Shown in pieces: positions 4,743 through 63,070 of a DNA stretch of 64,000 nucleotides (positions within the stretch are counted from its first letter, which is position 1; every line of letters begins with the position of its first letter). Under the pieces are notes generated by a model. That model did no database searches and had not been told where the DNA came from. It saw only the letters and a list, made by a program, of their open reading frames with translations. The position numbers and the translations under genes are program-made. Origin of the DNA: Ectobius pallidus (Eukaryota; Arthropoda; Insecta; Blattodea; Ectobiidae); assembly GCA_964059195.1 (NCBI GenBank), contig CAXKWD010000005.1:137655686-137719685 (forward strand), in the 5' to 3' direction.

Positions 4743-5312
4743 GACAGATGAAATGGAATTTTATACCTATATGCATTTCACCTGTCTCAACTGTTTAAGA
4801 CTAGCCTTGTCATGCCTGGCAGTTTAAACTGAGCATGAAAGGTGGAATGGAATTTTATATCTTCGTTTATATCATTGTTGTATTTCGCCTGTCTAAACCT
4901 AGCAGAAAGGCGATATGGAATTTTTATGTTGTATTTCGCCTTTATGAACTGTTTAGACTACCTGCAGAGCAGGTTGTTGTGCATGGTAGTCTAAACATAT
5001 CAGAAAGGCGAAATGGAATTTTATGTTGTATTTCGCCTGTCTGAACTTTTTAGAGCAGGTTGTTATGCATGGTAGCCTATACATCGCAGAAAGGCGGAAT
5101 GAAACTTTATAATTATCATCGTTGTATTTCCTGTCTGAACTGTTTAGACTACTTAGATTAATAATCCAATTATAACATTAAAAGCAGTTGGACATCAATG
5201 AAATGAAATTTTTAAGTTGTACTTCGCCTGTCTGAACTTTTTAGATTACCGCAAAACATTGTTATGCATGGTAGTCCAAACACAGCAGAAAAGCGAAATA
5301 GAATTTTATAGC
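4740..5312. repeat. Degenerate tandem repeat with internal dyads
   Basis: Units alternate between CAGAAAGGCGAAATGGAATTT and GTATTTCGCCTGTCTGAACTG blocks, which are partly complementary (AGGCGAAAT against ATTTCGCCT), so each unit can fold. Linkers share GTTGTTATGCATGGTAGTC. At least five diverged units are visible. I do not recognise the family. Confidence 0.75.
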
Positions 5313-5452
5313 CAGTTACTTAATCTTCGTGCGGGTGGAAAAGTATTTTACACGGTTTTGTAGCCTTACCCGAGAAACGTCAAGAGGAAGGAACAGTACT
5401 TAGTTTTTAGTATGCCTGGCGTTCTTTCAGAGTTTGAATCAGTTTATAGTAG

Positions 5453-6033: not shown

Positions 6034-6045
6034 AGTTTATAGTAG

Positions 6046-9000
6046 AGAAAGAATATTTATTGTTTTCAATCCTGAAATTCCAAGTCGAGCAAATTAAAAG
6101 GTTCAGGGATAGGGCGCCAGAAATTTCTAGATAAGAAAATGATTTTATGAAGTTTCTTTTCCGGAGTCAAAATTATGACGAATGCCCCCAACAGACGTGC
6201 TAATGAGGAGTCGAGGGGGTTCAGGTAGCGCTCGCCAAAGGGCAGGAAGAGAGTGCAACACCGAGTCTAGAGTACGCGGTCCGCGGTGGATGAGGGTCTC
6301 TTCCTGTTGGAGACCAGCCAACTGTTAACATTTAACGAATGGTGGTGCAGACGACCGTGAATGAGTGATAGCATTGCATATCGATGACTCCCGCCACAGT
6401 TAGAATTAATGCGACCTGTCTTCGAGTCTCACGTCAACCCCGAGCGAGCTACCAATGATTTCTGGCTTACCACACTTCATTTAGCGTACAACAATGTATC
6501 ACGTGATGCTCAATGGATTGATCACAAAACAGGCATGGGTTAGCGGGCGTGAGAGAGGCAAAGCGGGTTCTGCAAGCACAGTCATTATCCTGACACTTCA
6601 TCATTATAATACATGCAATATTTCTGTTCTGTGTTTTTCCGCTCTAGAATAATATCTATAGTATCATAAATCTAACTTTATCACAATTTAAGTTTTTTTA
6701 TTATTTATATTATAGTATCAACTTCACTGTTGCTGTTTCTAGGCAACAAATAACTCATACTGAAAACCTCTCAGCTTGATTTATTTTGTTGAAAGCTTGC
6801 GCTGTGTGTTGAAAATTATAAATCATCTCCCATTCACGTTTAATTGAAATATCAGTTAATATATTGCCTTATCTACAAGAAGCGGCAAGGTTTTATTGTC
6901 TGGAAATTTCAACGGATTACTACACTAGAGCTCTTAAGCAAACCTACATACAACATTAATTCCAGCAAAGATTAACATTTAAATCAACGTTCTTTAGAGT
7001 TACAGTGCATGCCGCTTATTGTGATCACTTTGGAATGCAGCTAATCTGATAGTATTAACCGATTGATGACAGTAGACAAAATAATTAATTGAATGTTATT
7101 TATTCATGAGATAATGTGTAACTGTGAATCATTGAACCATTCATTATACAGTATTAGTCTGCAAGCAACTATTCTTTCAACCGGTAACAAAGTTTTTAAT
7201 TGTATCTGTTTTCCTTTAGGAATCCATTAACCAATACTCCATACTCATTTACGAGTTATGGGTGTTTTTGGAAGTCTGCTGACCGCTTAGCAAAACATCT
7301 AAGACCTATCGGTTCAAGTCTTTTAATTTTACACTAACAATCACTGTTATATTCATAAATAAAAAACAGCAGCTCAAGGTCTAACTGAACATTATAAAAC
7401 ACGCCTATTTGTTACTAAAGAAGTAAATGAATTTATACTACTCGGACACTCTTAAGGAAAAAGAAATTCTTTCTGAACTGGTAGGCCCATCAAATTGTCC
7501 CTAGCAAATATGTGACATTTAAAAATGAAGAAAAAAGTTATTGCTACAAGACAAACTGCTATGATGTTTACAATAAATCTGAATTAAAATGAACGATGAA
7601 CACTTTGCGGAGAATCTCAAATAAAAACGATTATCCTTTGTCTGAAAGTAACGATTTGCACGTGGAAAAGCTCCTCTCTACCTCCACTAAAACATGGCCT
7701 AAAATGCCGAAAATGACCTAAAAATTGCCCAAATATTACCTATCTCTTGAAAATGACGGAAAATGCAAAATAAAGCAAAAAACCGCAAAAACAAATTGCC
7801 CTTATTTAATCAATTATTATATATATTGAGCTATTTTTTAACCTTCATACAGAAAAGATGCAAAATCATCAAATGCCTTGCCCTACTTAAAGCTCGGACG
7901 AGGCAAACTCCTTCACCCAATTGGAATTCCGAGAAACCATCATGAGTAATATCCTTTATAGACACCAGCTTAGTTTAAATAATTACAATAATAAATAAAT
8001 AAAATTATTCCAACAATATATTAAAACTAATGTAAATCAAACAATAGCAAAAATAAAATTTCAATATTCATTAAAAAATTATTCTTGGTTATCCATATGT
8101 GAGCTGATAAATTCCCTGGCTACGAAATTTTGGGGTTTCCTTTCATAACTTCAGGGATCGTTACGAAAATGATATAACAGAAGATGAAAGATTCTCGTTT
8201 AATATCCTATTCATGACCACTGGAGCTAGAATAGTCTGTAGAAAAAATATAGGCCTGTAGTATTTTTCACTAAAACGTTCTATTTGCAAGTATAAGCTAT
8301 TTCCTCTCATAGAACGGAATTAATGTCTCTCTTAATGGAAACGATCTTGCGATCAATTGCTGCCTTTCTCTTTTACTAAAGTGCTTTCGCTGCTTTTCTT
8401 GAAGACTGGCTTGTGAAGTGAATAATTTATTATACTCTGATGCAGAAAGAGGAGCATAATGAAATAAAGTTATGAACTTATCTGAGAGTGGATATGTGTT
8501 TGATGGTTGTTTTGTGAGTGATAAACTCAATAATCCAAACACTTTACGCCCTTTTAAGATATAAGATTATAGTATATTATTTATATAAAGCTATAAACTT
8601 GGGTACAATGCAATTTATATAATATAATATAGACTAATATAATATTTTAATGGAAATAACATTTTTCCCATAGTACAAACTCAGTTTTTTTTCTATTTTC
8701 AGAAAATATTATCATGATGCCCAATCCTTCAATTTCTAGTTCTTTTTCAAATATTTTTGGAAGGCTTCGCTATATTTTGTGTCGATTTACATCTACTCGA
8801 AATTTAAATTTGCCGATGTTTATGTCTATTAGAAGTTCTTTTCGAAGAGTTTCTGTATAATAGTTGCAAACTTGAATACTAGCTTTGTATTGGTTGACTG
8901 TTAATTATGGATGGTTATGGAATATTTCCCAGCATGATCCCATTAACCCGGGGTGACCCGCATGTGCTCCACATGGCTCTACCAATTCATCAATCATTAA

Positions 9001-9590
9001 TGTGTCGCAATATCGTAACATTTGCATGCGTCCCCCCCCACCAATGCAAATACCATTAAACATTTTTGTGAGAATTGTATTAATTTATTAGATGTTTGGT
9101 AGTTCTCTGTTAGGAGATGGTTCAAAACTCGTGAAAGTAATTTATTGATAATAATCAACGTTAGGGTTTTTAGGTGCACACCATTTTACATAAGAAAAAT
9201 AAGAGCCCCTGTGAGAGAAACAACAGTATGAAACGTTTTCTTTAGTTCAGAATGGAAGCAATTTTATAGAGCCTTTACCATTTTAGGACCTTTATCTTTT
9301 TTTCATCCACCATGCTTATAATTCCCTTTCCCCCTTTTAGTATTTTACTGCAGCTTTTAAATAATAATCTAAAACGCATTTCATTGCACTTTTATTGCTC
9401 CTAGGTATCTAGTTTTCTTTGCAATGTTCAAAATCTTAAATAACTTTCAATGAACTCTTCATCAGCTTGCATTGATGCTGCATTTGTTTTAAGAAAATGC
9501 ACGACTGAAGGCAAACCTGACACAATGAAGATTAACTACTAAATATTCCATTTTTCTATTGATAAATTTCATTTTTTCCGTTTTTGGTAA
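6046..9590. other. AT-rich DNA, no gene seen
   Basis: The stretch 6180-6560 is more GC-rich and complex than its surroundings but has no usable ORF or repeat that I recognise. From 7680 to 7950 there are A-rich runs of AAAATGCC/AAAATGACC. The ORF at 8297-8542 (81 codons, minus) is unrecognised and unsupported. Confidence 0.45.
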
Positions 9591-9597
9591 TGTTTGT

Positions 9598-9682
9598 TAT
9601 TATAAAAAAAGACTCGTCCACCTAACCACAGTTTGGTCCAGTTTAGTTTGTGGTTAGGTGGACGAGTCTTCTTTTTATAATA
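9598..9682. repeat. Near-perfect hairpin, 33-bp arms
   Basis: The left arm 9598-9630 and right arm 9649-9682 pair almost completely across an 18-nt loop, with GACTCGTCCACCTAACCACA against its complement and a single-base slip in the A/T run. It could be a minimal foldback element or could transcribe into a pre-miRNA-like hairpin. Nothing else supports either reading. Confidence 0.8.
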
Positions 9683-9689
9683 ATTCTAT

Positions 9690-10215
9690 TTTTCTTTTTA
9701 ATTTCGCTGGTATTAGTCAATGTGAATGCAAGTTTGTTACTTTACGAGGAAGCACCTTTCCTCCTCTATTTTGCCTTATTTTATCACATATTCTCTTCCT
9801 TTCTCCATATGGAAATTGGAACTAAATTCCTAAAAATTGTTGTTATACATATAATGAACTTTCCCCAAATCATGCATTAACAATTTTATTATAACGATTG
9901 ATAATAATAAGCCGGCTTCAGTCTGGTAGTGTTCTTCATTCTCTTCTTCAGAACTCCTTTGCCACTAATAACCTTGTAGATTTACATATAATGGTTTATA
10001 ATCAAATATTAATCAAACATTTCGTTGTTTGTGACGTGTAATCGCGTCTCCACGAAAAAAAAATAAAAGCAGAAATATAAGTTTATGAGAGTAATGCTTC
10101 ATGTTACAATATGAGTATTATTATTCACCGTAAGCAGCTGTGCCATTAAAATTATACTCATAGATTTCAAACTGATGATTTCACTTCATCATTCATTGTA
10201 TGATAAATTACACAA
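9690..10215. other. AT-rich DNA, no gene seen
   Basis: The plus ORF at 9650-9880 starts inside the hairpin and is a hydrophobic low-complexity reading. Nothing else was seen. Confidence 0.4.
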
Positions 10216-10219
10216 ATTC

Positions 10220-10333
10220 AGCTCTGAAAGGATTATCCTCTGGTTTAAGGATGGTATCCACCTCTGGTTAGTGGATGAGAAGGCCTTAAGGCCTTAACTA
10301 CACCAGAGGGAAATATAAATAAATAAATAAGAT
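10220..10333 (+). mobile_element. 3' end of a 5'-truncated non-LTR retrotransposon
   Basis: The sequence GGCCTTAACTACACCAGAGG leads directly into an (AAAT)n tail at about 10312-10331. This matches the layout of a non-LTR retrotransposon 3' UTR with a short tandem tail. Only about 110 bp remain, so the clade cannot be assigned. Confidence 0.55.
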
Positions 10334-10711
10334 TACTAAATTAATGTGTTCCTCCTGGATTCAGCAACAAAGATGAGCATAATAATAGACTCGCATAAAT
10401 GCACTAGTTCAATACGGACTTAAGCTAGATTGAGTAAAAGTGAGGGTTAGAGACAAAAGTAGTGTAACGTGGTTTTTTAGGTTATACCAGCCCGCAGAGG
10501 GTTTCCAGGGTTGAAAATTAATTTTAAAATGTAGTACAATCGACATTCCTAAAGAAACTTAGGCCGGTAGGCAGGCTACGCCCATTTGATAAGGGGTTGT
10601 GCGCCGTTGGTTTAAGACCTGAAAATATTTTATAGTATTTTGTTAGTTATTGTTTTAAAACGCTCTATGAAAATTCTCTTTACTTTTCGTTGGCTGCACA
10701 TTGCCTTAAGG

Positions 10712-10963
10712 CATAGGCGTACCCCCATTGATTAAAAAAAGGAAAATTGTATAATTTTTGTAAGTCTGCCCATAAATTACTTAATACAAGCATAAAGCGT
10801 GGGAAGCTTAAAACTCGTTATTTTGCGCCTTAATTTTTTTAATTTTCCGGGGGAGGACCCCCGGAAGCTTAAAACTCGTTATTTTGCGTCTTAATTTTTA
10901 AAATTCCATACCCCCAGATGTTATAACCCCCCCCCCCATATGGTCGGCCTGGTTACGCCTACG
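10712..10963 (-). mobile_element. hAT-like MITE family 1, copy 2
   Basis: Termini CATAGGCGTA and TACGCCTACG are flanked by a perfect 8-bp duplication, CCTTAAGG, at 10704-10711 and 10964-10971. It lies in reverse orientation to copies 1 and 3. A block of about 60 bp starting AAGCTTAAAACTCGTTATTTTGCG occurs twice in tandem, an internal duplication the other copies lack. Confidence 0.93.
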
Positions 10964-10974
10964 CCTTAAGGCAC

Positions 10975-11528
10975 TTGGTTTTCTCTACAACATTAGGTTC
11001 AATATTAACAATATACACATGGATTATTTTGGAGTATAACCTTAGGGTCATTTAGCATTGACTGTGTTTCTGACAGTCTCAAAGCCATGGAGGGCAAATC
11101 TATTACCAACACGTCCTTCATGATTCAGTGGCCTAACACTGCACAGCACCTGCATGTTACTCATGATCTGCTGCACACAATACTGTGCAGGTATAATATA
11201 ACATCTGTCAAGTCGAGATTACCCCTGGACTAGCTTGTCCAGAGAGAATGATTTTAATGTTTTAATAGATCGTTATGTACGTGTTAATTTAATACCATAC
11301 CTGTTTAACTTTAAAAGATCTGGGACCAAATTTATTTAGACAAGCCATCTTGACAGTCGCATCAAGATTACTAGTTTGATTCGTATTAAACACTTGCAGA
11401 TTATCATTAATACTGTTAAATTGGTAGATGTTACAAATAATTTGAAAATAACATAACTTAACTAATAAAGATAAAATGTACTCTATTTTCATAAAACATA
11501 ATTTTTACCATGCATATTACTGCTACAG
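10975..11528. other. No gene seen
   Basis: Anonymous DNA. The minus ORF at 11289-11492 has no recognisable features. Confidence 0.4.
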
Positions 11529-11536
11529 GGGATGCG

Positions 11537-12358
11537 TAGGGCCCTGATTTACTGGTAAAATAAAGTGGCTGATTTCGGTGTAAACTTCCTTGTATTTCGG
11601 TGGGTATTTCGTGAAATACATTACTTTATACTACATTGGGAACACTGCGCAATGATAAACTTTGCTTCTTTATTCACATGAACTAACATCCCCCCCCCCC
11701 AATTTCTATATTCTTCTGCCCTTGTAAGAACTGAAGAAACTTTCGATTTAGACATGATTAGAGTTAATGTTCAAATATAATGACGATAAATATTATCGTA
11801 ATTTCTACTAAACACCATCAGATAGCCATTTGCAAACAGAAGTGCCAACCATACTACTGTGGATAAAAGACGAAATCTGTTGAATACAAGTAACAAACAT
11901 TCTACGTACATTCTTCTGCTGTAATCGATCATAGGCATCGCTAACTTGGCAAAGACATAGCAGGAAAGGAGTGTACTCAACAGGTCACAGACAATCTTTG
12001 GGTACATTCTGCAATCTTTATAATCGATCACAAATATCGATATATCGGTAAATCTTCGACAGCCACAGAAAAAGCATAAAAAAAGCATGCTGCTAAGAAA
12101 TAAAAAAAAATACAGTACACCAAAACACAATATTGTGATTTTAAGGCACATTTTCGTGCTCATTTTTACTTTATGGACAGAAGGGGCATATTTCGCGCTT
12201 ATAGACACATTTCGCGGAATCGAATAAATTTCGCGATATTTCGTGGATTCAATTTGGTTCATATTGGTATTTTAAGCATATAAAAACTAAATATAGCTAA
12301 GGGATGTTGTTTTATAAAATTTCGCGCTTATCGTTGTTACCAAAAAATACGGCCCCTA
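11537..12358 (-). mobile_element. hAT-like element, 822 bp, carrying an ORF
   Basis: A perfect 8-bp duplication GGGATGCG lies at 11529-11536 and 12359-12366. The termini are TAGGGCCCTGATTTACTGGT on the left and, as complement, TAGGGGCCGTATTTTTTGGT on the right, an imperfect TIR of about 20 bp. Subterminal TTTCGCG/TTTCGTG motifs recur at both ends. No transposase domain is visible. The interior holds a 163-codon minus ORF (11771-12262). It landed next to a SINE head. Confidence 0.85.
11771..12262 (-). CDS. 163-codon hydrophobic ORF inside a hAT-like element
   Basis: This is the longest uninterrupted ORF in the first half of the window. Strongly hydrophobic stretches lie near residues 41-68 (ending in LFLCFFCG), 91-109 and 132-150, so it would be a small membrane protein if expressed. 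The first 35 residues are translated from subterminal TTTCGCG repeats of the surrounding element, which argues for chance or for a captured fragment extended by the repeat. I recognise no family and see no promoter or splice evidence. hAT transposases do not look like this. Confidence 0.25.
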   Translation of the reverse strand: MNQIESTKYREIYSIPRNVSISAKYAPSVHKVKMSTKMCLKITILCFGVLYFFLFLSSMLFLCFFCGCRRFTDISIFVIDYKDCRMYPKIVCDLLSTLLSCYVFAKLAMPMIDYSRRMYVECLLLVFNRFRLLSTVVWLALLFANGYLMVFSRNYDNIYRHYI

Positions 12359-12366
12359 GGGATGCG

Positions 12367-12554
12367 TTATCTCCTCTCACGCAGCGGGCCCGGATTCGAA
12401 TCCTGGTTGGTACCAAGTTACCCAGGTGGGGTTTTCCCGTGATTTTTTCTCGCCTGTGAGATAAATATTTGATAAATTTAGGCCCATGAAGTCCCCGGGT
12501 GTCATCTAGCCGTCATTAACATTTTCAACCCATCCTCGCCTTTTTCAGAGTGAA

Positions 12555-12585
<31 letters not shown>

Positions 12586-12795
12586 AGCCTGTCTCGTACT
12601 TTGTTTGTGTTTTATCGGAGGTGGCCCCGGCATTGGGCTGTTCACTCATCGGAGGAGGCCCTCCATGTCTGGTCGAAAACTATGTATGTGATCCAATATA
12701 ACCCCTCTCCCGAGGAGCCCTGTAAGGCCCGAGCGGCGTGAGTCTCTTAAAACGTCCCTAAAAGGGAGAGGCAAAAAACTAAGGAAAATAAGAAG
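12367..12795 (+). mobile_element. tRNA-derived SINE with internal (TG)n
   Basis: A B-box-like GGATTCGAATCCTGG at about 12391 is followed by a body with GGTGGGGTTTTCCCGTGA, a (TG)n tract at 12555-12582, and a 3' part ending GTCCCTAAAAGGGAGAGG and an A-rich tail. The same 3' end occurs alone at 51062-51125. The 5' head is cut by, or abuts, the hAT-like element's target site. Confidence 0.7.
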
Positions 12796-14787
12796 TCATA
12801 CCAATTAACCGTATTAATGAAAATGATAGTAATAATAGTAACTGATAGTAAATACTTCCTAATCTGTTCTTATTTTTGAGTCTCCGGGGTCCATACAGGG
12901 GATACTTTACCTTTTTACCTTAATTCAATTAAGGCAAGTTCAATAATACCCTCCTAACAGTGAATTGGTATGTTCTAGATTGTACCGTAAGTCAGTTATT
13001 TTGTTTAACATTCTTAAATAAATTATTAGTTTATAAAAGTTTAATCCTCAATATAACTTTTTTAGAATGACTTTGTCTCACTATGATTCTCACCCCTTAT
13101 AAAACTAACACAAATAAAGTTAGGAAATTAATTGACTTAGAATTTTCTTAAGTAAATCGGTCAGGAAATAATACTAACACTTTAATACTCTATAATTACT
13201 CTGGTATATAGTCTAGAACCTTTATTTCTAATTGACTTTTCTTAAGCGACGCAATGTTATCAAGGCTGAGATGAGTGCCAGGAGGAATAGACTGTAAATA
13301 CAAGGCTTAAGTTCAAGTTATCTTTCTAGGTTAATTATTTGCCGATAATCTAGCGAAATATAAAGACGGCGCTTGATGCTGAGTATTCTAGGCGAGAGCT
13401 TGGAATATAATTGAACTTCCTCCTGAAAGCAAATAAAGAGCATCCTAAGAGGTAATTAAACCCCGGTTACCGAGCAGCATTTTATGTGATTTCACTGGAT
13501 AAGTGTAGCACATTTTTAATTAACAAGACATTTATACTCTGCCGTTATTAAAATGCAGAGTTTCCAGAATGCTTTTCAACATGCGAGCTACCCTCTGAGT
13601 TCATAATGAACTCCGTTCTATTTGCCTCATTAACGTGTTTTTATAATTAACCTTGCGGGGTCCTGTTAAATTTCTGTACGTTACGATCCTTCATTACCCT
13701 GCTTCTATTAGTTGTATTCTCATAAATGATTATAGTTTTCCTGAACGTAGTATTAAGATAGTATTAATGGAGGGACCAGGTTTATTATGCTAGAAGCATC
13801 AAATTTTGATTTTACGTTACGTTTGCTCGTTGGGGGCTCTGTCCCCAAACCCCCAGCGAGATTCTCGGGAAAAGTTTTTTTTAAATAATTGACACCGTAT
13901 TGGAGTCGGTGGATTTAGACTGCCGTAACCTATATTACTATTTAGCAATAATAAACCTAAAAAAATACGGTACTAGATATTTTCGTGGGCAAAATAATAA
14001 ATTAACTTATTAAAAAGGTTCTCGCCCATTACAGGCTAAAAGGTCAAATGTCAGGTTTTTATCTCATTTGGAAATGGGTAGACATTAATCTCAGCAACAA
14101 TTTTCACAATTCTTTTGGGGTAAAATATTAAAATTTTGAACTTTTTTTAATTTTCCCATCGGCTATAGGTTAAAAGCTATAAGGCTGCCAAATTTCAAGT
14201 TTCTAGCTAATGAGGAAGTGGGTAAACATTAATGTCAGTGAATGTGTGATTTAGACTTTGGTAGATGTGAATGACATTAGGCTAAACAGTCAGTTTTTCC
14301 ATAGACTACTTGTAGGACAGCTAGAATTACCAAAGTAGGCATGCTTGGATGTTCCAATATTTATTTCTACCTGTGTATACCATCGTAATGTTATTCATAA
14401 TTCTGTATTTAAATATAGCGGCGCAGCGTCCTTAACAGTGATTTTATTCGCCATTCTTATGCTTATATTGCCATTCATGAAAAAATTTAAACAGAACTGT
14501 TCGAGTAGTTTTCGAGAAAATCGACCAAAAAGAAATTATTGTCATCTAAAGTGGATGTAAAAATGAAGAGAAAGTCGTTACCACATTTCGCACCGCATCT
14601 CCGAAGGATATACAAATACACAATCCATATAAAATAAGAAGCCATCAACTCACGCAACTCACCCTACCCAAAGCATGGACAATAGGCCTTTCTCACTTCA
14701 CATACCGATGTAGAATAAGAGGCCGTATTGTAAGAAATGCGGTTTTCATTTAAATATTTCAACCTGATACAAAGAATTATTGATAGG

Positions 14788-16389: not shown

Positions 16390-16690
16390 AAATTCCAAGG
16401 CTGGCCAATTTGATTTGGGTGTTTCATGGTTTCCCTACATGTAAAGGCAAATACCAAATTGGATATCTACTTACCATGACGCATTCCCGCTATTTCAACC
16501 TGTATCGTATTCATTGAAACGAATACAGTCGAAAATTATCAGACGCCATAAACTCGTCAACAATGGAAAAAAGTTGCACATCAATAGTTGCATTGGCCTA
16601 CTGGTGTCCACACAGAACCTGAATTCCCTATAGAGCTTCGATGCTCAAAGGAGTGTAAGTAAAGCTCGTTTTAAAATATTGCAGTTTCTC
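16390..16690 (+). mobile_element. SINE family B copy, 5'-decayed
   Basis: It matches the family B body (GGCCAATTTGA, TTTCATGGTTTCCC, AAAGGCAAAT, AATTGGATAT) and 3' part (CGATGCTCAAAGGAGTG). The tRNA-like head has mostly decayed. The best copies are at 21.9 and 42.2 kb. Confidence 0.8.
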
Positions 16691-18734: not shown

Positions 18735-18816
18735 CACTAACAATAGAAAATAATTGACAATGAATAGTTCTATGACCTATCCTACTGTATAGGCCTACAT
18801 ACAGATCCCGAACTCT

Positions 18817-19273
18817 ATGCCGGTCTCCTTAGCCGCGGTAGCTAAGGCGTGCTGCCTTGGAGCAGTGGGTAAGGAGGCTGTGGGTTCGAGTTCCGCCTCG
18901 GGCATAGGCGTAACCAGGCCGACCATATGGGGGGGTATAACCCCCAGGGAGAGGGGGGTCCGGGGGTCCTTCCCCGGAAAATTTAAAAAATTAAGATGCA
19001 AAATAACGAGTTTTAAGCTTCCCACGCTTTATACTTGTATTAAGTAATTTATAAGCAGACTTAAAAAAATTATACAATTTTCCTTTTTTTAATCAATGGG
19101 GGGGGGGGGGGGTTCAAACCCCCAAAACCCCCCCCTCGGTACGCCTATGGCCTCGGGCATGGGTGTTTGTGTGTCATAAAGAAAACACGGAAAACAAGGA
19201 AAGAACAGAAAAACAATGGAAAAACCGAGAACAAAGAAACAAGGAAAAAAACAGAAAAAATGACGTTAAAAAA
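18817..19273 (+). mobile_element. SINE (family C) nested in SINE B and split by a MITE
   Basis: The head resembles a tRNA, with an A-box region TAGCTAAGGCGTGCTG and B box GGGTTCGAGTTCC at about 18882. The tail at 19180-19270 is A-rich with AGAAAAAC repeats. The MITE at 18903-19149 interrupts it just after the B box, and the GCCTCGGG target sequence is duplicated around that MITE. Confidence 0.8.
18903..19149 (+). mobile_element. hAT-like MITE family 1, copy 3
   Basis: Termini CATAGGCGTA and TACGCCTATG are perfectly complementary over 10 bp and flanked by a perfect 8-bp duplication, GCCTCGGG, at 18895-18902 and 19150-19157. The interior matches copies 1 and 2, including CGAGTTTTAAGCTTCCCACG and paired poly-G and poly-C tracts near the ends. 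Confidence 0.95.
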
Positions 19274-19340
19274 ACTCTTGGTATGGCCTCGTAGCTAAAA
19301 AGGAGTATAAAAACAGTTGAAATAATATTAATAATGATAA

Positions 19341-19384
19341 TAGTAATAGTAGTAGTAGTAGTAGTAGTAAGAGTAGTAGTAGTA
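19341..19384. repeat. (AGT)n microsatellite
   Basis: About 14 AGT units with one AAG interruption. Confidence 0.92.
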
Positions 19385-21924: not shown

Positions 21925-22265
21925 TTGAAAAGCATTCGGGATGTCCCAGGTTCAAATCCCGTGGCCGGCCAATTTTACATGGTTCTTTTTTATGGTTTCC
22001 CCAGTCGTAAAGGCAAATGCCGAATTGGATATTTAGATACCATGAACCTCACCATTTAATGCTGTATCATATCCATTAAAATTAATAGGCCTATCAGTTG
22101 AAATTTACTCCGTTAAATACACCGACAATAGAAACAATTGACAAGCAATAGTTCCATGGCCTACCTTACTGTATAGACACAGATCCCGAACTCCCGATAT
22201 AGCCTCGATGCTAAAAGGAGTAGGCCTATAAACACAGCTGAAATAAAATTAAAATTAAAATACTA
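21925..22265 (+). mobile_element. SINE family B copy
   Basis: B box CCAGGTTCAAATCCCGTGG at about 21948, then the full family B body to the AAATAAAATTAAAATT tail. Compared with the 42.2 kb copy it contains two extra TAGGCCTA insertions (22086-22093 and 22221-22228), each replacing a single TA. The A-box part is weak. Confidence 0.9.
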
Positions 22266-25714: not shown

Positions 25715-26159
25715 GTTATAATATTTCATGGGACGATTGTCTAAAACTCAGGAATCCTTAAACTCCAGTGGACGTAAAGCCCTCCACGATCTACGTAAGA
25801 GTGAGAAATAGCACAACGTTCCGAGTTGGAATCCAAATGTGAGGTGTTTACCTCAGGTATGCAAGTTTATGGACTAGCGCCTTTGTGTAGCCTGGATACT
25901 GCACGCGGTACACCGGTGTCGGGGAAGTAGTGTTCGCTCCTGTACGGCGCTTCCCTTCGTATAGTGGAGTTCATGCGAACAGCTTTGAGAAAATGACCCT
26001 CCAATTGGAATATGAATAGCATATTGTAATTCAATGCTTAATAATGGTTTATTAACGTGACTTAGCTTAATTTAAATTATTGTAGGAATTTTTTCAGAGG
26101 TTTCTCTACATGTACAAACATTGTGGTTTCATGACTTCATTATTCACGATGGATATACA
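25715..26159. repeat. Segment duplicated near the window's right end
   Basis: Together with 25409-25714 and 26825-27053 it matches 63071-64000, including ATACTGCACGCGGTACACCG and GGCGCTTCCCTTCGTATAGT. The duplicate lacks the hAT insertion at 26160-26824. It may be part of a larger repeat family, as no coding function is seen. Confidence 0.85.
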
Positions 26160-26824
26160 TAAGCTTGACAGACGTCCCGGTTTGACCGGGACAGTTCAGG
26201 TTTTCAGACAAAATCCCGGTGTCCCGGCCGGTTTACTTCACGTCCCGGTAAAAATTAAATTTTATTTTCTAGATGACCAAAAAGGTCTAAAGCTAATTAA
26301 CTGTGAAGGATTATTTAGGATAATTACTTTGTCATTTATTTCTGTCTGTATGAAAAGTGAGAACTATAGAAGAGTGATGGTCTGCTAATGAATAATATTG
26401 TCATCGTATCGTCTTGTCTCGCCAATCGTGACCATGCGCGATGCGAGAGCTTGTGAAGATTTTTACAACAAGATTAAAACCAAAAAAGACTTTCTAAAAA
26501 AAGTCCTAGCCAATGAAAAGTACACGTAAATATTGTTCAAATTTTTATTCCTCATTCAAAGTGCTTCTTCTTACTTAAGTAATTTTTAAAATAATATTAA
26601 CATGTTAGAAATAAAATGTTTAAATTTATATGCTTATGTCATCCATTATTAGGCCTACCCCAGGTTTAGGTTCCTAATCAGTAACCATTTATTCATAGCA
26701 TTGAGAATAAACTACCCTCTAGAACAATGTAAAAACTCGCCAAGAGTGTGTACCCTTGAATACCCGCGACGCTGGGGGGCATTCCGGAGTCCCGGTTGAA
26801 CATTTCACAAATCTGGCAAGCCTA
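26160..26824. mobile_element. hAT-like element, 665 bp, with empty site at 63.8 kb
   Basis: An 8-bp duplication GATATACA lies at 26152-26159 and 26825-26832. Ends read TAAGCTTGACAGA and, as complement, TAGGCTTGCCAGA. Several GTCCCGG motifs sit near both ends. The homologous segment at 63.80 kb runs straight through (GGATATAGAGAGTG), giving a direct empty-site confirmation. The short plus ORF at 26110-26388 crosses the left boundary and is spurious. Confidence 0.93.
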
Positions 26825-26830
26825 GATATA

Positions 26831-31249: not shown

Positions 31250-31581
31250 TTAGGGCCCTTTCACACGAGTCAACAAGTTGATTACACAAGTTGAACGGGC
31301 GGGTGTCAGGAAGTGTAACGATATAGCAAATATATGGGAATCGCTCGAACCCTTTCACACGCAGTAAACTCGAGCGCCCAAGCTCATTCTCAGCCGGCAC
31401 GCGAGCCGCTAACGTTCTCATCCTAACTAGTTGACTCAACTAAAAGGACATTACAAAGCATTAGTCCATTCACACGAGGCACCTAGTTGAGTCAAGTGAG
31501 GGCAGAATGGAGGGCGTTCCATCTGTCGTTTTCAACACCGAACAATTCATAGAAGATATCCATAGTAATCCTGCAATATGG

Positions 31582-33026
31582 CAGGGGTGCCCACAGGGGG
31601 GGGGGGGGAGGGTTAAGACGCAGACTGCGTCATTGAAATTTCTGGGGGGGGGGCAAAATATTATCGTTTTATGAATTTTCTGGGGGGGGGGGTTGAAAAT
31701 TGTTGCAAAATTAGCGTTTTATATGTTAAAAATAAAAACGGTCAAATTTTATAACTTCAAAAGGTTTCTTCTAACAGTGGATTAGGAAAGGGGGGTCCAT
31801 GGGGTTTGGACCCCCAAAAGTTAAAACCTAAAATTCTATATTTGTATTTAAAAAAATATTTATTTATTTAAACAAGATTTGTTGGTGTGTCAAATATGAT
31901 ATAGCAGTTATTTTCTTTTCATAACATAATGAGTAGGCTTATTATATCCACTGTTCCATGTGTTATTCAACTTTTCTTATAAATAGTAATAAGTATTATA
32001 ACTTAAGTAACAACTTAAGTTGTCATGTATTAGAGTACAGTAAACAAATTTGCTAACTAGTTTTTCAGTGCTAAAATAGCATGAAATGTGATTTTAATTA
32101 GTTCAACATTTAAAAATTTCCCGGGGGTGGACACCTGACTTAGGTAACATTTTCTTGTTTACATTGGCACGTCTTCGAGTACGGTAAAACAATTTCCAAA
32201 CTAGATTTTGAGTGCTAAAATAGCGTAAAATGTGATTTTCATTAGTTCAATATTTAACAATTTTCCAGGGGTGAAGGCCCCACTTAGGTAATGATTTCTT
32301 ATTTACATTGGCATGTCTTAGAGTATGGTAAACAAATTTCCTAACTAGTTTTTTAGTGCTAAAATAGACTAAAATGTGATTTTCGTTCAATATTTAAAAA
32401 TTTCCCGGGGTGGACACCCGACTTAGGTAACAATTTCTTGTTTACATTGGCATGTCTTAGAGTATGATAAACAAATTTCCTAACTAGTTTTTGAGTGCTA
32501 AAATAGCGTAAAATGTTATTTTCATTAATTAAATATTTAAAAATTTTCCGGGGGTGGCCCCCTACTTAGGTAATGATTTCTTATTTACATCGGCATGTCT
32601 TAGAGTATGGTAAACAAATTTCCTAACTAGTTTTTCTGTGCTAAAATAGCGTAAAATGTGATTTTCACTAGTTCAATATTTTAAAATTCTCTGGGTTTGG
32701 ACCCCCGACCCCATTTTTGGGGGGTATTTTAAACCCCCCCGGCACTTTCTACCCTCCCCGCAATTATTTTATGGCTACTTATTTTGTTGCACTTATTATA
32801 TTATTATAATTATTAATATAATGTTACAAAGTGGCCCAAGAAGTTAAAGCAACAAAAAATAAATAAATTTAAAAAAATAACCCCCCACCCCAGAAAATAT
32901 CATATGGGTGCCCTTGTCGATAGCCAATCAGGTTGGGGGTGAGCAATGAAGTTTGTGGGGGTGAGCAATGAAGTTGGGTGGGGGGGGGGGGTGAGTCATG
33001 AAGCTTGAGGGGGGTGGGCACCCCTG
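31582..33026 (+). mobile_element. hAT-like element in the MADF exon (copy A)
   Basis: Ends are CAGGGGTGCCCAC and GTGGGCACCCCTG, perfect 13-bp TIRs. AATATGG is duplicated at 31575-31581 and 33027-33033 (7 bp visible, with an eighth possibly mutated). The interior has long poly-G tracts and five units of a ~145-bp minisatellite. No transposase ORF. Confidence 0.9.
32015..32710 (+). repeat. ~145-bp minisatellite, five units
   Basis: Each unit contains GTAAACAAATTTCCTAACTAG, GTGCTAAAATAGCGTAAAAT and a CCCGGGGGTGGACACC-type block. The corresponding part of copy B (about 34525-34930) has only three units, which accounts for most of the length difference between the two Harbinger copies. Confidence 0.88.
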
Positions 33027-33189
33027 AATATGGGATATGAGGTGTGAAGAATACAAAGCCAAAATTAAAAGGAGTGAAGGTTGGAGGGAAGTGGCACGAA
33101 AATGCTATGCCGATTTTAATAGCATGGAGCCTGCCAAACAAGGTGCAATCGGTAAGTACATTTCATTCAAATTATTAGAAATATTTAAG

Positions 33190-33440
33190 CAGGGGTGCCC
33201 CCCCCAAACTTCATGACTCACCCCCCAACGTCATTTCCCACCCTCTAACCTGATTGGCTGTCGACAAGGGCGTCCATATATTTTCTAAGGGGGTGATTTT
33301 TAAAATTTATTTATGTTTTGTTGCTTTAACTTCTTCGGCCACTTTGTAACATTATATTAATAATATAATATAATATAATAAGTGCAACAATGACGTAGCC
33401 AGAAAATAATTGCGGGGAGGGTCGTAAGTGCCTTTGGGGT
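33190..33440 (-). mobile_element. Deleted hAT derivative, opposite orientation (copy A)
   Basis: It begins CAGGGGTGCCCCCCCC and continues as the reverse complement of the right end of the hAT element at 31582-33026 (GCCAATCAGGTT, GCAACAAAA, GGAGGGT-CG). Only about 250 bp are left. It sits just downstream of the MADF splice donor, inside the putative intron. Confidence 0.82.
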
Positions 33441-34016
33441 TGGCGCATAGCTCTCATTCTACAGTTGCATCTCTGGCAATGAGCCCATTGCCTCCAGATT
33501 TGGAATTTTCGAATGAATCCTCTAATTTCTGATTTCTACTTTCATACTTCATACTACCGCAATATCTATCGGATTGATGATTAACCTATACAATCATTCC
33601 AATTATCAAGCCATCGTACTGACCTCCCTTTGGGAGAAAAGTTGATTCCACAAAGTGCCTCGTGTGCCTCGTGTGAACACAAACCAAATGAGTCTTCACA
33701 CGGCAGTCAACAAGTTGAGAGTCAACCAGTCAACTTTAAGAGCCTCGTCTGAAAGAGGCCTAAGGGCCCTTTCACACGAGTCAACAAGTTGATTACACAA
33801 GTTGAACGGCGGGTATCAGGAAGTGTAACGATATAGCAAATATATGGGAATCGCTCGAACCCTTTCACACGCAGTAAACTCGAGCGCCTGAGCTCATTCT
33901 CAGCCGGCACGCGAGCCGCTAACGTTCTCATCCTAACTAGTTGACTCCACTAAAAGGACATTACAAAGCATTAGTCCATTCACACGAGGCACATAGTTGA
34001 GTCAAGTGAGGGCAGA

Positions 34017-35370
34017 ATGGAGGGCGTTCCATCTGTCGTTTTCAACACCGAACAATTCATAGAAGATATCCATAGTAATCCTGCAATATGGCAGGGGTGC
34101 CCATAGGGGGGGGGGGTTAAGACGCAGACTGCGTCATTGAAATTTCTGGGGGGGGGGAAATATTATCGTTTTATGAATTTTCTGGGGGGGGGGTTGAAAA
34201 TTGTTGCAAAATTAGCGTTTTATATGTTAAAAATAAAAACGGTCAAATTTTATAACTTCAAAAGGTTTCTTCTAACAGTGGATTAGGAAAGGGGGGTCCA
34301 TGGGGTTTGGACCCCCAAAAGTTAAAACCTAAAATTCTATATTTGTATTTAAAAAAATATGTATTTATTTAAACAAGATTTGTTGGTGTGTCAAATATGA
34401 TATAGCAGTTATTTTCTTTTCATAACATAATGAGTAGGCTTATTATATCCACTGTTCCATGTGTTATTCAACTTTTCTTATAAATAGTAATAAGTATTAT
34501 AACTTAAGTAACAATATCTTGTTTAAGTTGTCATGTATTAGAGTACAGTAAACAAATTTGCTAACTAGTTTTTCAGTGCTAAAATAGCATGAAATGTGAT
34601 TTTCATTAGTTCAACATTTAAAAATTTCCCGGGGGTGGACACCTGACTTAGGTAACATTTTCTTGTTTACATTGGCACGTCTTAGAGTACGGTAAAACAA
34701 TTTCCAAACTAGATTTTGAGTGCTAAAATAGCGTAAAATGTTATTTTCATTAGTTAAATATTTAAAAATTTTCCGGGGGTGGCCCCCTACTTAGGTAATG
34801 ATTTCTTATTTACATTGGCATGTCTTAAGAGTATGGTAAACAAATTTCCTAACTAGTTTTTCTGTGCTAAAATAGCGTAAAATGTGATTTTCACTAGTTC
34901 AATATTTTAAAATTCTCTGGGGATGGACCCCCGACCCCATTTTTGGGGGGTATTTTAAACCCCCCGACACTTTCTACCCTCCCCGCAATTATTTTATGGC
35001 TACTTATTTTGTTGCACTTATTATATTATTATAATTATTAATATAATGTTACAAAGTGGCCCAAGAAGTTAAAGCAACAAAAAATAAATAAATTTAAAAA
35101 AATAACCCCTCACCCCAGAAAATATCATATGGGTGCCCTTGTCGATAGCCAATCAGGTTGGGGGTGAGCAATGAAGTTTGTGGGGGTGAGCAATGAAGTT
35201 GGGGGGGGGGTGAGTCATGAAGCTTGAGGGGGGTGGGCACCCCTGAATATGGGATATGAGGTGTGAAGAATACAAAGCCAAAATTAAAAGGAGTGAAGGT
35301 TGGAGGGAAGTGGCACGAAAATGCTATGCCGATTTTAATAGCATGGAGCCTGCCAAACAAGGTGCAATCG
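34017..35370 (+). pseudogene. MADF-domain exon broken by a hAT element (copy B)
   Basis: Same structure as copy A: ATG at 34017, 25 codons to 34091, hAT insertion, frame resuming at 35253 and ending at a GTAAGT donor at 35371. The 5' 75 nt and 3' 118 nt look identical to copy A on reading, so the duplication is recent or homogenised. No transcription evidence. The exon cannot encode the domain while the insertion is present unless the insertion is spliced out. Confidence 0.8.
34092..35245 (+). mobile_element. hAT-like element in the MADF exon (copy B)
   Basis: Same 13-bp TIRs and AATATGG duplication (34085-34091 and 35246-35252) as copy A. Three minisatellite units instead of five. Confidence 0.9.
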
Positions 35371-35408
35371 GTAAGTACATTTCATTCAAATTATTAGAAA
35401 TATTTAAG

Positions 35409-35662
35409 CAGGGGTGCCCCCCCCCCAAACTTCATGACTCACCCCCCCCCCCACGTCATTGCCCACCCTCCAACCTGATTGGCTGTCGACAAGGGCGTCC
35501 ATATATTTTCTAAGGGGGTGATTTTTAAAATTTATTTATGTTTTGTTGCTTTAACTTCTTCGGCCACTTTGTAACATTATATTAATAATATAATATAATA
35601 AGTGCAACAATGACGTAGCCAGAAAATAATTGCGGGGAGAGTCGAAAGTGCCGGGGGGGTTG
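35409..35662 (-). mobile_element. Deleted hAT derivative, opposite orientation (copy B)
   Basis: Counterpart of 33190-33440. The inner boundary is better preserved here: GGGGAGAGTCGAAAGTGCCG matches the parental interior. Confidence 0.82.
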
Positions 35663-35983
35663 GCGCATAGCTCTCATTCTACAGCTGCATCTCTGGCAAT
35701 GAGCCCATTGTCTCCAGATTTGGAATTTTCGAATGAATCCTCTAATTTCTGATTTCTACTTTCATACTTCATACTACCGCAATATCTATCGGATTTAATG
35801 ATTGATGATTAACCTATACAATCATTTCAATTATCAAGCCATCGTACTGACCTCCCTTTGGGAGAAAAGTTGATTCCACAAAGTGCCTCGTGTGAACACA
35901 AACCAAATGAGTCTTCACACGGCAGTCAACAAGTTGAGAGTCAACCAGTCAACTTTTTGAGCCTCGTCTGAAAGAGGCCTACG

Positions 35984-36189: not shown

Positions 36190-38690
36190 ACTCCTCCCCT
36201 TTTATGATCATGTAATACTTTAGTTCAGGGCATGAAATTTGAAGTCTGAAGTCAGTGGACAAATCAGTAATTTTAGTCGCCACTATTGTTAAATATAGCT
36301 TTACAGCCTTTGGGAATGATGTAGAGATATTCCCTCCCCTATTTGTTCTTTACATATAAAATATTACAGCTTATAGGCCCATCGCCTTTAAATATGCAAA
36401 TTTAAGTAAATTAATTAAATAAATCCCATTGAACTGCTTTCCCCAATTACAAAATACTAATTACTAAATTGTATTTTTTTCGTGGCACAAACTAATTTGA
36501 TGTAGAGAAAAGGGAATGGTTTGTTATGTGAATTAATTACTGGTATTTTTGCTGTATCATAAAATAAAGGATGAATTTAAGAACAGTTAAAGCAAATTAA
36601 ATATTTTGTGTTTCAACTAACTGTAAACTTTAAAGCTGTAACAAACAACAACCAAACACACGAAGAAAATTGTTGTTACTAGAGGAGCTAGAACAACGTT
36701 TGGCTAAAACTTAGGGAACAAAATCTCATGGGAAATTCAAATTAGGCCTATTTTCGAATACTTCCGAGTAAATTTAATAATGTAAAAACGACTGCTGTGG
36801 CCATATCTATTATCAATTTGAACTTAAATTTTGTTGCAAAAACCATAATATAATAATATAAAACAAGATAGAAATTCTTCAAAATTGAATTTTCGCCAGA
36901 CTCATAATTCAGAAATTTCGCGCGCTCCCTTATTTTCTTCAGGCTAGTCGTCGAGGTGATGGGCTTACCTCTTGTCCCTCTATCCTCTTTCGTAAAATAA
37001 ATGTAACTAAATTATTATTTGATAATGAAACCTCCACTCAGAGGACTCTAAATTCCCGACCTAGGAGTGACGGTTGCAAAACATCTAATAGCCTATTTCG
37101 TATTTGAAACGAGCTTCTCATTCTATCCTGTAAGGGAGATATAAACAATGGACATTTCTTTAGATATCAGTAGTTAGATTTTAAAAATATTTACATTACT
37201 TTGGAAGTAACGACTTTACATGAGCAAGCATGTACTTAATTTAATATTTAAGTCCAAAGACTCATAACCTAACCAACCTGCGTCTTTTCCATCATTGCAG
37301 CCCATATGCGTCATTATATCGAACTCTCTGACATTTTATATACCTATTAATGTTAATATGGAGTATGATCATAATGTTTGTTAGTTGAATTTTACCATTT
37401 CAATTTTACCTGTGTCTTTACTTCCTTTTTATTTCTTAATATTGACTTATGATTTAGTGCGTTCAGTACCTAAGTATGGTACGGCTTGTGGCGTCTACGC
37501 TGCCTGAATCGATATATCTATCGCCATCAAGATTAGAATAGGCAATACTTTTAGGGATGGTACTTAACTACAATCTTGAACAGCTGTTAATGAAATAATT
37601 ATGTCATATCTTTGTTCTCTAATTCTTTTACTATGCCAAAGCCTTTAAGGTACACGGAACCATAATCAAGTCTTCTTGTCTTGCGTTTGCGATTGTACAT
37701 TATAGTCTATTACGAATGCCTTCCATAAATAACAACGATATAATTGTACAAACTTTCATGTTAGATTGTGTTTGCACTTAATTTCCATTATGAGTGGGCG
37801 TTTACTTGGAAAGTCTGTCTGTTTCCAGAGGCATGTTTGTGAATTATAGAAAACCTATAAAAGCATCGCTTTCAATAGGCTTATAGCTAATAGGCCTAAT
37901 GGTGATGAGCACACTAAAATGGCTGAATAAAGTTCAACAGCCCTCAGCATGTAAGTCTAATTAAACAAACAAAGGTTTTTCTACCGTGTTAGAACAAGCC
38001 AGATTACATAGCTATTTTGTTAGTTTTATCAAACGATTATCTTTCTTGTTTAAATACATATACAAACGAAAAATTAAAGTTCAAGTCACATCATACTGAC
38101 AAGCTAAAACCCCAGCTTTCGATTTTACTATATCTAGAAAGATAAATCTACAGTATCCCCTTCCTTCCTGCAAAGTAAAAAAAAATAATAATAATATAAA
38201 TACGTTATGCATAACATAATGTGAAATTGTGAGAGATTCTAAGATACACTTTTTTGTTCGTATATGAAACGTGTTCTATTTATTTCTAATTTTATAAGTA
38301 AATCCATCTTGATATATTATCCATTTTTATACATACACGTAGACCTATGTATACGGATAAAAATATTAGAGAATTTCTAGAACTCGCGGCGAATTCACTC
38401 CAAGTGATGAAAATGCGTGAGATGTAGGCCTATTAACTGGTCATTGTAGTAAATATAATAGGACAAAATTTAGCACATGGGTAGGCCTATAAGTTAGCCC
38501 ATATTGATTTGCAAACATTTTACTAATTTATTTACAGTTAATGTTTACGTCATTACTGATTCACTACCATTACTTTCCACTTGTTAATAACTGGTGATTA
38601 TCCTTTATTTTGTATTTATTTATATTTGAAACTAATGTTCTACAGCTTAATTCAATATGAAAATGAGGTAAAATTATAAAGTGCCCCTTA
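36190..38690. other. AT-rich DNA, no gene seen
   Basis: No ORF above background and no recognisable repeat apart from four TAGGCCTA octamers (36743, 37891, 38425, 38482). Confidence 0.45.
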
Positions 38691-42180: not shown

Positions 42181-42534
42181 AGCGAGGTGGCCGAGATAGT
42201 AACGTCTTGGATTCGCATTTGAGAGGTCTCAGGTTCAAATCCCGTGGCCGGCCAATTTGACAAGGGTTTTTTCATGGTTTCCCCAGTCGTAAAGGCAAAT
42301 GCCGAATTGGATATTTACATGCCATGAATCATCCTCACCATTTCATCCTTTATCTTTTCCATTTAAATTAATATCAGTTGAAATTTATTCCATTAAATAC
42401 ACCGACAATAGAAACAATCGACAATCAACAGTTCCATGGCCCACCCTACTGTACACACACAGATCCCGAACTCCTGATATAGCCTCGAAGCTAAAATAAG
42501 TATAAACACAGCTGAAATAATAATTTTTAAAAAT
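42181..42534 (+). mobile_element. SINE family B, best copy
   Basis: Full-length: A-box region GAGGTGGCCGAGATAGTAACG, B box CTCAGGTTCAAATCCCGTGG at about 42227, then the body to an AAATAATAATTTTTAAAAA tail. The flanking duplication GTTGTGAAAACTG (42168-42180) and GTTGTGAAACTG (42535-42546) defines the insertion. It carries single TA dinucleotides where other copies have TAGGCCTA. Confidence 0.93.
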
Positions 42535-45659: not shown

Positions 45660-45850
45660 TGCTGAGCTTTGTGGCTCAGAAGATAGCATCTGGGTCTAGC
45701 ATTCGGGAGGTCCCGGCTTGAAAGCCCGTTACCAGCCATTATTTCATCCTATTTCAAAACCATTAAAATTAAAATTCAGTTAAAATTGTCAGAATCCAAC
45801 TAAACCTAGACCAGGCACTCCAGCAATGTAAAGAAAATGTATACGAATAG
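45660..45850 (+). mobile_element. SINE B-like copy, degenerate
   Basis: Head GTGGCTCAGAAGATAGCATC and B-box-like CCCGGCTTGAAAGCCCG precede a shortened body ending near AACCTAGACCAGGCACTCCA. It is older than the other copies. Confidence 0.6.
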
Positions 45851-48187: not shown

Positions 48188-48440
48188 AGCGAGGTGGTAG
48201 GCCTAGGCCTATAGGCTAACAGGGAAGAGGTCCTGAGTTCAAATCAAACCTCGTGGCCGTCCAAATTGACTTGGGTTTTTCATGGTTCCGTCGTTCTCAA
48301 AGGCAAACGCCGGGTTTGTAGGACTTGCTTATTTTCCATAACTCATCGCCGCTATGTCACTGGATATTATAATCGCTTAAACTGAATATCACATAAGAAG
48401 ACATCACTAAACAATAGAAACATGACGCGAATGAGTTGTT
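48188..48440 (+). mobile_element. SINE B-like copy with double TAGGCCTA
   Basis: The head GCGAGGTGG is followed by TAGGCCTAGGCCTA (48198-48211), then a B-box-like GAGTTCAAATCAAAC and the family body (GGGTTTTTCATGGTT, AAAGGCAAACGCCG). Diverged from the 42.2 kb copy. The double octamer sits within the tRNA-like head. Confidence 0.75.
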
Positions 48441-61011: not shown

Positions 61012-63070
61012 ACTAGCTTAAAAGGCCCGGGTCGCCCGGGTTTTTATTTTGTAATTTGAAATTAACTTATGAAGGACTTTCGATTTGTAGGCCTACATAG
61101 AACTTGAAATGAGGAAGAACGACTTATCACACTTAAACTATTTCCTCAGAAAACGCTAGATATAGCCACTACATGCTTGATTTCCTTTTGCCACATTTCT
61201 GGCGTCACCATCAATACTGCTCTGTCAAACCGTTTCCTAACATCGCATAATTAAAAAGTTTTGTTATTTCTGGCCACAAACCCTTTGATAAAACTCCATA
61301 CCAGTTCAATTGGATTCAAATTGCTATGATAAGGGGGCAACCTCAGTACTTGATGGCCCACTTTATTTGCCATATCATCAACCACATATTTATTTTCATC
61401 TTTGTCCGCGAATTCCTGTGCTAAGATCACTAACTATGCCTTAACACTTTTATCATTAAATGTTACATTCTTTTCTTGAAGTATTTGGACGCCGATAGTG
61501 TTTCACACTGTGGTATGATGCATTGTCCATAACTATTAAACTGTTGGGTTCAAGTTTCGGCAAAACATTAGCAAACCAGTTACGGAATACCTCTCCATTC
61601 ATGTCTTCGTGGTACTTACCTGTTTTCTTTGACTCAAAAATGAGCAAACCCCCATCTACGAAGCCTGTTTCACTACCTATATGCGTAACTATTAGGCGTT
61701 TCCCCTTACCCATAGGATTTTTTAAACCTTGACTTAATCCTGCCCTAAAAGCTTTTTCCTTTGATTCAACAGTAGTGTCATGCCAAATTTTAGGGGTGGT
61801 GTGTCCTGCATTTACCCATGTCTCGCCTAAGTAATAAAACTTTCGACCCTCTGCTCGGTATTGCCGTACAGCTCTAAGATATCGTCTTCTCCAAAGTACA
61901 ATATCATCACGATCTACTATAACATTAACCTCACTTCTTTTCACATATTTCATTCCAATGTCCAACAATAACTTATAAATTGTTGTTCTTTTAAAATTAG
62001 GTAGGTCGGAGTCCTCATTGACAGCACAAAGAAGTTTATCCACAGTTGGAGGTATGTTATCAAAAAAGAATTGATGAACTTTTGCTCGAATAGCACTTTT
62101 CACAACGTCATCAATGTTATCTAAAACACTAAGCAGCTTTTCAGCCTTTCTTGGGGGAGTTTTCACTACACCAGAGTCTCTGTATTCACTACGCACTTTC
62201 CAGATACTTCTGGTACATATACCGGTGAATTCAGATGTTAATTTTACAACGTCCTCAATTGCAAGGGCTGGATATATATTTTTTAAACCCATTAAACACA
62301 TTCAATATAATTTCCTTCTGTCCACTTCGCAAAGATTTACCTCTCTTATTTTTAATTATGCCACTTGGGCCTGGTTGAATTTCAGTCATTATGTTTAATG
62401 CTTCTCACAGACTGGGTTATAAATTATAAACACCACGTTTCGCTGTTCACTGAAATTTGTATGTTTATATTATTCACAACAATGACTCGCAAACTGGAGG
62501 GTTATATCACGAATGCCACGTTTCGCAATACGTTGAAACATTTGCAATAAGTTGATATTGTTATCTTAAGAATTTTCGTCACATTTTATGAGCTTTTACT
62601 GTTATAAAAATAAAATCTAATACCGCACTATATTGTCTTGTAGCATGATGTGTGGTGTGGTTCAAACCACGTGCATTTGTTTACACGGACTTGCATTCTC
62701 AAAAGTCAAAATGAATGGATAACACACTTTCGAATTGGTTTGGTTGCAAGACTCACTTTTGTTTTTGTTTGTTTTGTTATGAAAACATGTGAAAGTGGAA
62801 CTCTCAAACTGTGAATGTCACACTTCTTTTGTCACACTTCAATTTTTTATGTAAACAATTGACAGCAGAACTCTCTAACTTTGTCTAACTTTGCCTCATT
62901 TCATCACATTTCCGACTTTCCCCGTGGATTTTCCAAAAATTTTCTTTCATACAAACCTTCTCCAGACAATTACGATCACAACAAAACAAAAATCAGCCAA
63001 ATCGGTCGAGCCGTTCTCAAGTGATGCGGCAACAACCCTTTTGTAAATTCATTTTTATTAATATAGATAG
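61012..63070 (-). mobile_element. Element family E, copy 2 (E2), with transposase relic
   Basis: The left end ACTAGCTTAAAAGGCCCGGG matches E1; the right end is TTCATTTTTATTAATATAGATAG. The only gene is a decayed IS630/Tc1-type transposase on the minus strand (61147-62389). I see no clear terminal inverted repeats, unusual for that superfamily, so the true limits may differ. The right flank is family R sequence. Confidence 0.7.
61147..62389 (-). pseudogene. IS630/Tc1-superfamily DDE transposase, decayed
   Basis: From ATG 62389 the minus strand reads MTEIQPGPSGIIKNKRGKSL and RSGQKEIILNVFNG, then shifts frame in an A run near 62280 into the 281-codon ORF (62301-61456). That ORF has an N-terminal helix-turn-helix-like region, then YYLGETWVNAGH at residues 156-167 and LIVMDNASYHS at 255-265. 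The first catalytic Asp of the usual LDETWV motif is Gly here (GGC, complement of 61825-61827); the second Asp (complement of 61525-61527) is intact. The frame then shifts again; the third motif, YHSNLNPIELVW, with its Glu at 61305-61307, is in another frame behind a stop at 61434-61436, and another stop lies at 61251-61253. Dead by at least two shifts, two stops and a lost catalytic residue. Confidence 0.88.

Follow-up and report, generated by a model that had tools for sequence, protein, structure and literature searches.

Copy-specific gains of TAGGCCTA at TA sites in SINE-B repeats of an insect genome window: possible excision footprints of a TA-duplicating transposon

Introduction

A palindromic insert with a duplicated TA is the geometry expected from the excision of an inverted-repeat element, and the scars of Sleeping Beauty read TACAGTA/TACTGTA. 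According to an extract of PMC7913693, Tc1/mariner elements leave footprints of 2-4 bp, and those of the element under test in that study measured 0-3 bp. Ends starting with GG are usual for ISL2EU elements, and the target duplications are AT for ISL2EU and TWA for Harbinger (PMC4482050, in extract), whereas a TA duplication is described for PHISTA, from rust fungi (PMC12730594, in extract). In this study, we analysed one stretch of 64 kb from Ectobius pallidus, referred to below as the window. In it the eight-letter palindrome TAGGCCTA, made of two TAs around a 4-bp insert, GGCC, that is itself palindromic, is a copy-specific gain at three TA sites.

Results

The three sites lie in copies of SINE-B, a repeat that we read, as did the first-pass annotation which named it, as a putative SINE; a tRNA scan found no tRNA gene. 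Copies of SINE-B are present in the window at 16.4, 18.7/19.3 (split), 21.9, 42.2, 45.7 and 48.2 kb, more than had been used before:

16390..16666, plus strand: older SINE-B copy without insertions, used for polarity, 72% to the 42k copy; not in the first-pass annotation
18740..18815, plus strand: 5' piece of SINE-B copy 18.7/19.3k; carries one insertion and is separated from the rest by a later insert
19273..19345, plus strand: 3' piece of SINE-B copy 18.7/19.3k, no insertion
21932..22265, plus strand: SINE-B copy 22k with two insertions, 85% to 42215-42525
42215..42525, plus strand: SINE-B copy 42k without insertions
45698..45787, plus strand: diverged SINE-B fragment without the 22086 insertion
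48244..48391, plus strand: diverged SINE-B copy without the 22086 insertion

The first-pass annotation had claimed that a single TA became TA-GGCC-TA in individual copies, quoting the sequences at 22086, 22221 and 18790 and those of the copies at 19.3 and 42 kb. Re-reading of the sequence confirmed these strings, and the replacement of TA by TAGGCCTA proved to be derived and copy-specific at all three sites, being absent from 4/4, 3/3 and 3/3 comparators. The opposite polarity, with the motif ancestral in the SINE-B family, was looked at and was found at none of the three.

22086..22093, unstranded: TAGGCCTA gain (TA to TAGGCCTA) in SINE-B copy 22k; absent from the 16.4, 42.2, 45.7 and 48.2 kb copies
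22221..22228, unstranded: second TAGGCCTA gain in SINE-B copy 22k; absent from the 16.4, 19.27 and 42.2 kb copies
18790..18797, unstranded: TAGGCCTA gain in SINE-B copy 18.7k; absent from the 16.4, 22.1 and 42.4 kb copies

The net change at each site is +6 bp, that is, GGCC plus a second TA, so that the TA is duplicated on both sides. Among the comparators of 22086, those at 45.7 and 48.2 kb are more diverged and loosely aligned, and the 45.7 kb copy reads AAAAT at the equivalent position, where the TA is thus not preserved. The 16.4 kb copy has TG in place of TA at the equivalent of 22221, and the gain at 18790 requires neighbouring substitutions too. The copy at 22 kb differs from that at 42 kb by three indels of 3 bp or longer, and two of them are this TA to TAGGCCTA event. 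Self-alignments were available for five of the 23 TAGGCCTA sites in the window (22086, 22221, 18790, 61088 and 29137), and a copy-specific gain was found in three of these five. At 61088 there is no clean TA replacement, the 52.2 kb partner reading TAGGTCT and being 17 bp longer, and at 29137 the motif falls within an unalignable loop, with no insertion evident from the self-alignment. Insertion is therefore observed at three of the 23 motifs, and we infer it for the rest.

The 23 matches to TAGGCCTA, about one perfect motif per 2.9 kb, compare with 0.88 expected from dinucleotide shuffles; none of 100 shuffles reached 23, the highest count being 4, and the enrichment is about 27-fold against both the shuffles and a Markov model. 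The matches form 22 separate loci, with two motifs overlapping at 48198. For counts of sequence classes, duplicated units and simple repeats were masked, leaving 55,581 bases. In this masked window TA-GGCC-TA ranks first of 136 TA-NNNN-TA classes (22 seen, 0.8 expected), and the runner-up is the simple repeat TAATAATA (44 vs 13.9). When GGCC was placed in all 16 XY-GGCC-XY frames, TA alone was enriched (46 vs 1.66, both strands counted) and no other frame exceeded 2. The flanks of the 22 loci are about as similar to each other as those of random TA sites (best 37/80; random maxima average 37.3). Preference for particular bases near the TA is weak, with uncorrected p-values of 0.005 and 0.014 at two of the ten positions, and so is clustering, with three gaps below 100 bp (p = 0.038, the 48198 array included). 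At least four motif loci are inside SINE-B copies, each at a differing position of the repeat, which indicates that TAGGCCTA is not a constant component of a single repeat. Two further places hold more than one motif:

38425..38489, unstranded: a pair of TAGGCCTA motifs, at 38425 and 38482, with a spacing of 57 bp; candidate insertions
48198..48218, unstranded: array TAGGCCTAGGCCTATAGGCTA, two adjacent units plus TAGGCTA, within the head of a diverged copy of SINE-B

The head that carries the 48198 array aligns only loosely with the copy at 42.2 kb and hence gives no ancestral state; the array looks like the result of further hits on freshly created TAs. Positions 1-14783, the first 14.7 kb, are without TAGGCCTA (p = 0.003 for the gap under uniformity), and five TAGGCTA/TAGCCTA are present within them.

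Derivatives that differ from TAGGCCTA by one mismatch are in excess in the masked window (31 vs 17.9 expected), and transitions make up 15 of them against 6.0 expected. This excess fits what insertions decaying neutrally would give and, together with the dissimilarity of the flanks, fits many independent events of spread age. By a hand estimate the mean motif age is about 0.07 substitutions per site, slightly different counts giving 0.03-0.17. Nothing in the data calls for selection on TAGGCCTA.

Among shorter TA-flanked products, TAGGCTA/TAGCCTA stands at the top of 32 TA-NNN-TA classes (21 vs 5.9, masked window), and these sequences, too, may have arisen as insertions. The sole TAGCCTA with good paralogues, at 5073, was ruled out as an insertion, being a substitution from TAGTCTA. 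No excess was found for TAGGCCA/TGGCCTA, in which a T or an A is lost instead (7 vs 5.95). The minor variants TAGGTA/TACCTA, which the first-pass annotation had predicted, failed to appear in excess either with masking (23 vs 28.6) or without (31 vs 30.9). TACAGTA, which we take to be a Sleeping-Beauty-type scar, is third of the 32 classes in the masked window (23 vs 11.4), and TACCATA, presumably a mariner-type scar, is sixth (19 vs 10.3); TACATGTA, which we assume to be the scar of Tc1, is not enriched there (2 vs 2.1).

Beside the 22 separate motif loci, the 64-kb window yielded no TA-GG...CC-TA element that was clean or convincingly intact. One search covered TA-to-TA spans of 60-2500 bp with 14/18 matching ends, simple sequence being left out, and further searches reached 8 kb and 6 kb; longer elements, or those with short or decayed ends, would escape them. 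Pairs of TAGG/CCTA ends within 6 kb with at least 11/16 matches numbered 32 of 4173, about 25 being expected at the background rate, and thus show no clear excess. Four end pairs have at least 13 matches. One of them links two elements of hAT-like type, another falls inside longer arms, and the remaining two form the ends of the following feature:

31253..35979, unstranded: tandem pair of ~2.5-kb units with termini GGGCCCTTTCACACGAG / CTCGTCTGAAAGAGGCC adjoining TA

Its units are 94-96% alike and DNA-transposon-like, with Harbinger-like ends. The ends read GGGCCC...GAGGCC, with GGG at the start, the outer flanks are TTA and TAC, and the middle is TAA; the target duplication may be TA, or TWA in decayed form. 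This pair is the sole lead to the source of the scars, as a possible but unproven relative of it.

Because of TA-GGC at their ends, the miniature elements at 5751-6017 and 18903-19149 (ends CATAGGCGTAACC), which we take to be hAT-like, were suspected as sources; their 8-bp duplications (CTACGGCG/CTACGTCG; GCCTCGGG twice) rule out a TA target. A third such element with ends CATAGGCGTAACC is located at 10755-10964, the 8-bp duplications having been observed for the other two. The inverted repeat 59610/60085 was also rejected as a pair of source ends, since it falls within longer arms (59534-60161). Separately, a repeat copy at 63.8 kb lacks an insert of about 667 bp that its counterpart carries at 26157-26825, with GATATA flanking this insert on both sides.

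One reading frame of the window resembles a transposase:

61456..62301, minus strand: 281-codon frame, Tc1-like DDE_3 transposase, shorter than its relatives

It scores 19.4 bits against Pfam DDE_3, under the family cut-off of 28.6, and has 466 relatives at E <=0.001; among the best 120 of these 466, the best match is 74% identical and all named relatives are arthropod. The arthropod relatives make the window look insect-like, although a mobile element does not by itself identify a species. No terminal repeats were found for this frame.

Searches of other collections gave no animal comparator, neither from viral nor from bacterial sequences. The SINE-B pattern had no match in viral contigs. 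A doubled TAGGCCTA matched 59 contigs, in 48 of which long open frames take up a fraction of 0.7 or more of the bases, and none of the 11 contexts examined was clearly animal. Two repeat patterns matched 18 contigs, which hold one TAGGCCTA altogether. Relatives of the transposase were absent from viral contigs and present at nine loci in bacterial records, and no relatives were found for the reading frame at 11774-12271. The motif may also occur in the sequences of other animals. Among the matches listed in a literature search of titles and abstract openings, there was no published description of an excess of TAGGCCTA.

Discussion

Our results show that the gain of TAGGCCTA is copy-specific at three TA sites, that it is specific for both TA and GGCC, and that a second product and decayed copies are likewise in excess. 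We tentatively read TAGGCCTA as the excision scar of an inverted-repeat, cut-and-paste DNA transposon which duplicates TA and has GG(C)...(G)CC ends, and give this reading slightly less than an even chance. Insertion of such a transposon would duplicate the TA. On excision the two outermost bases of either inverted end would stay behind, giving TA-GG-CC-TA; since each end is an inverted copy of the other, this scar would be a palindrome. Three-base overhangs (GGC) might instead pair with one central mismatch and give TAGGCTA or TAGCCTA. On this account a transposase would have made the cut, the element ends would have been GG(C)...(G)CC, and the remaining sites would have the same origin.

Counting for excision are the three polarised +6 bp gains, the first rank of TA-GGCC-TA in its class, the excess of TAGCCTA/TAGGCTA, and the excess of TACAGTA and TACCATA. 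Against it, TAGGTA/TACCTA, which one-sided repair is expected to give, are not enriched, and no clean source element lies in the 64 kb. Furthermore, 5073 is a substitution, two of the five self-aligned TAGGCCTA sites are without an evident insertion, target preference around TA is weak, and the first 14.7 kb are empty, which the excision model does not predict. Thus, of the footprint interpretation in the first-pass annotation, the derived replacement of TA held, but the variants that it foresaw did not appear as an excess and an intact element did not turn up in the window. A rough hand estimate, which sets 22 perfect motifs plus the decayed ones against about 7% divergence, would put these events on the order of 0.5% of substitutions, and a low-copy but busy element could supply that rate without many remaining copies.

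Alternatively, a novel TA-specific process may add GGCC and duplicate TA genome-wide without the passage of any transposon, at about 0.5% of the substitution rate by hand estimate. A break at TA would keep both TA ends, GG or GGCC would be added at the 3' ends, and the ends would be joined. We regard this as possible though on the unlikely side. Self-complementary GGCC overhangs would anneal and give one uniform product, in keeping with the missing excess of TAGGTA/TACCTA, and a micro-insertion of this kind would also suit the tandem two-unit array at 48198 and the failure to find a source element in the window. TAGGCTA/TAGCCTA, however, would require an additional trimming step, and we know of no enzyme that performs a TA-specific GGCC micro-insertion.

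A further route would start from the insect telomere repeat, TTAGG. Breaks at TA would be primed by this repeat in a telomerase-like manner, GG being added onto each TA end, and filling in and joining would produce TAGG|CCTA. The scar halves TAGG and CCTA are indeed fragments of the repeat, and TAGGGCCCTA is absent from the window, as expected of a TTAGG species, although it is rare by chance anyway. This route is nevertheless very improbable: T precedes the TA in 10 of 42 cases against 14.7 expected, so that it is not preferred there, TTAGGCCTAA is absent from the window, and TTAGGTTAGG was found once, distant from all motifs.

The evidence comes from one assembled window, and an assembly or sequencing artefact, or chance composition, has to be weighed for that reason. 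We consider it very improbable in view of the roughly 27-fold excess of a single 8-mer over shuffles and Markov model alike, flanks no more alike than at random TA sites, and the presence of decayed derivatives. In addition, a published PCR primer of the German cockroach contains GTAGGCCTATC, as given in an extract of PMC7650587, so that at least one insect locus targeted by PCR carries the motif. Finally, an ancestral TAGGCCTA that was lost from the other SINE copies is hardly credible even with few SINE-B copies in the window, as it would have to be missing in all three or four comparators at three different positions, every loss would have to leave a single TA or a remnant, and the motifs also occur at unrelated loci.

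If the motifs are excision footprints, as we favour, past jumps have left a record in the genome that can be counted, and the rate and age of an element and its choice of targets could be read from that record even with few copies left. If no element was involved, they point to a mutation process that is new and sequence-specific. In both cases palindromic AGGCCT sites are seeded together with fresh TA targets, and whichever reading holds, TAGGCCTA insertion accounts for two of the three indels of 3 bp or longer between two SINE copies.

Like the footprints of Tc1/mariner (ITm) elements, the scars here have a duplicated TA target around a short insert, which in those elements derives from the inverted ends and measures 2-4 bp (length from the extract of PMC7913693). 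As judged from sequence, GGCC, 4 bp and palindromic, fits the Tc1/mariner footprint length, and its origin from element ends is a candidate one. Unlike Tc1/mariner footprints, the scars would imply GG...CC ends, one-sided products are missing, and no source element was found in the window. With respect to PIF/Harbinger-ISL2EU-Spy (PHIS) elements, the scars duplicate TA, unlike ISL2EU (AT) or Harbinger (TWA), and so depart from the duplications typical of these families in the extract of PMC4482050. PHISTA is known from rust fungi in the description compared, an extract which gives no account of footprints (PMC12730594). The tandem pair at 31253-35979, only a candidate relative of the source, has GG...CC ends beside TA. 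The GGCC of the scars would fit ends starting with GG, as are usual for ISL2EU, and PHISTA, like the scars, duplicates TA (PMC4482050 and PMC12730594, both in extract).
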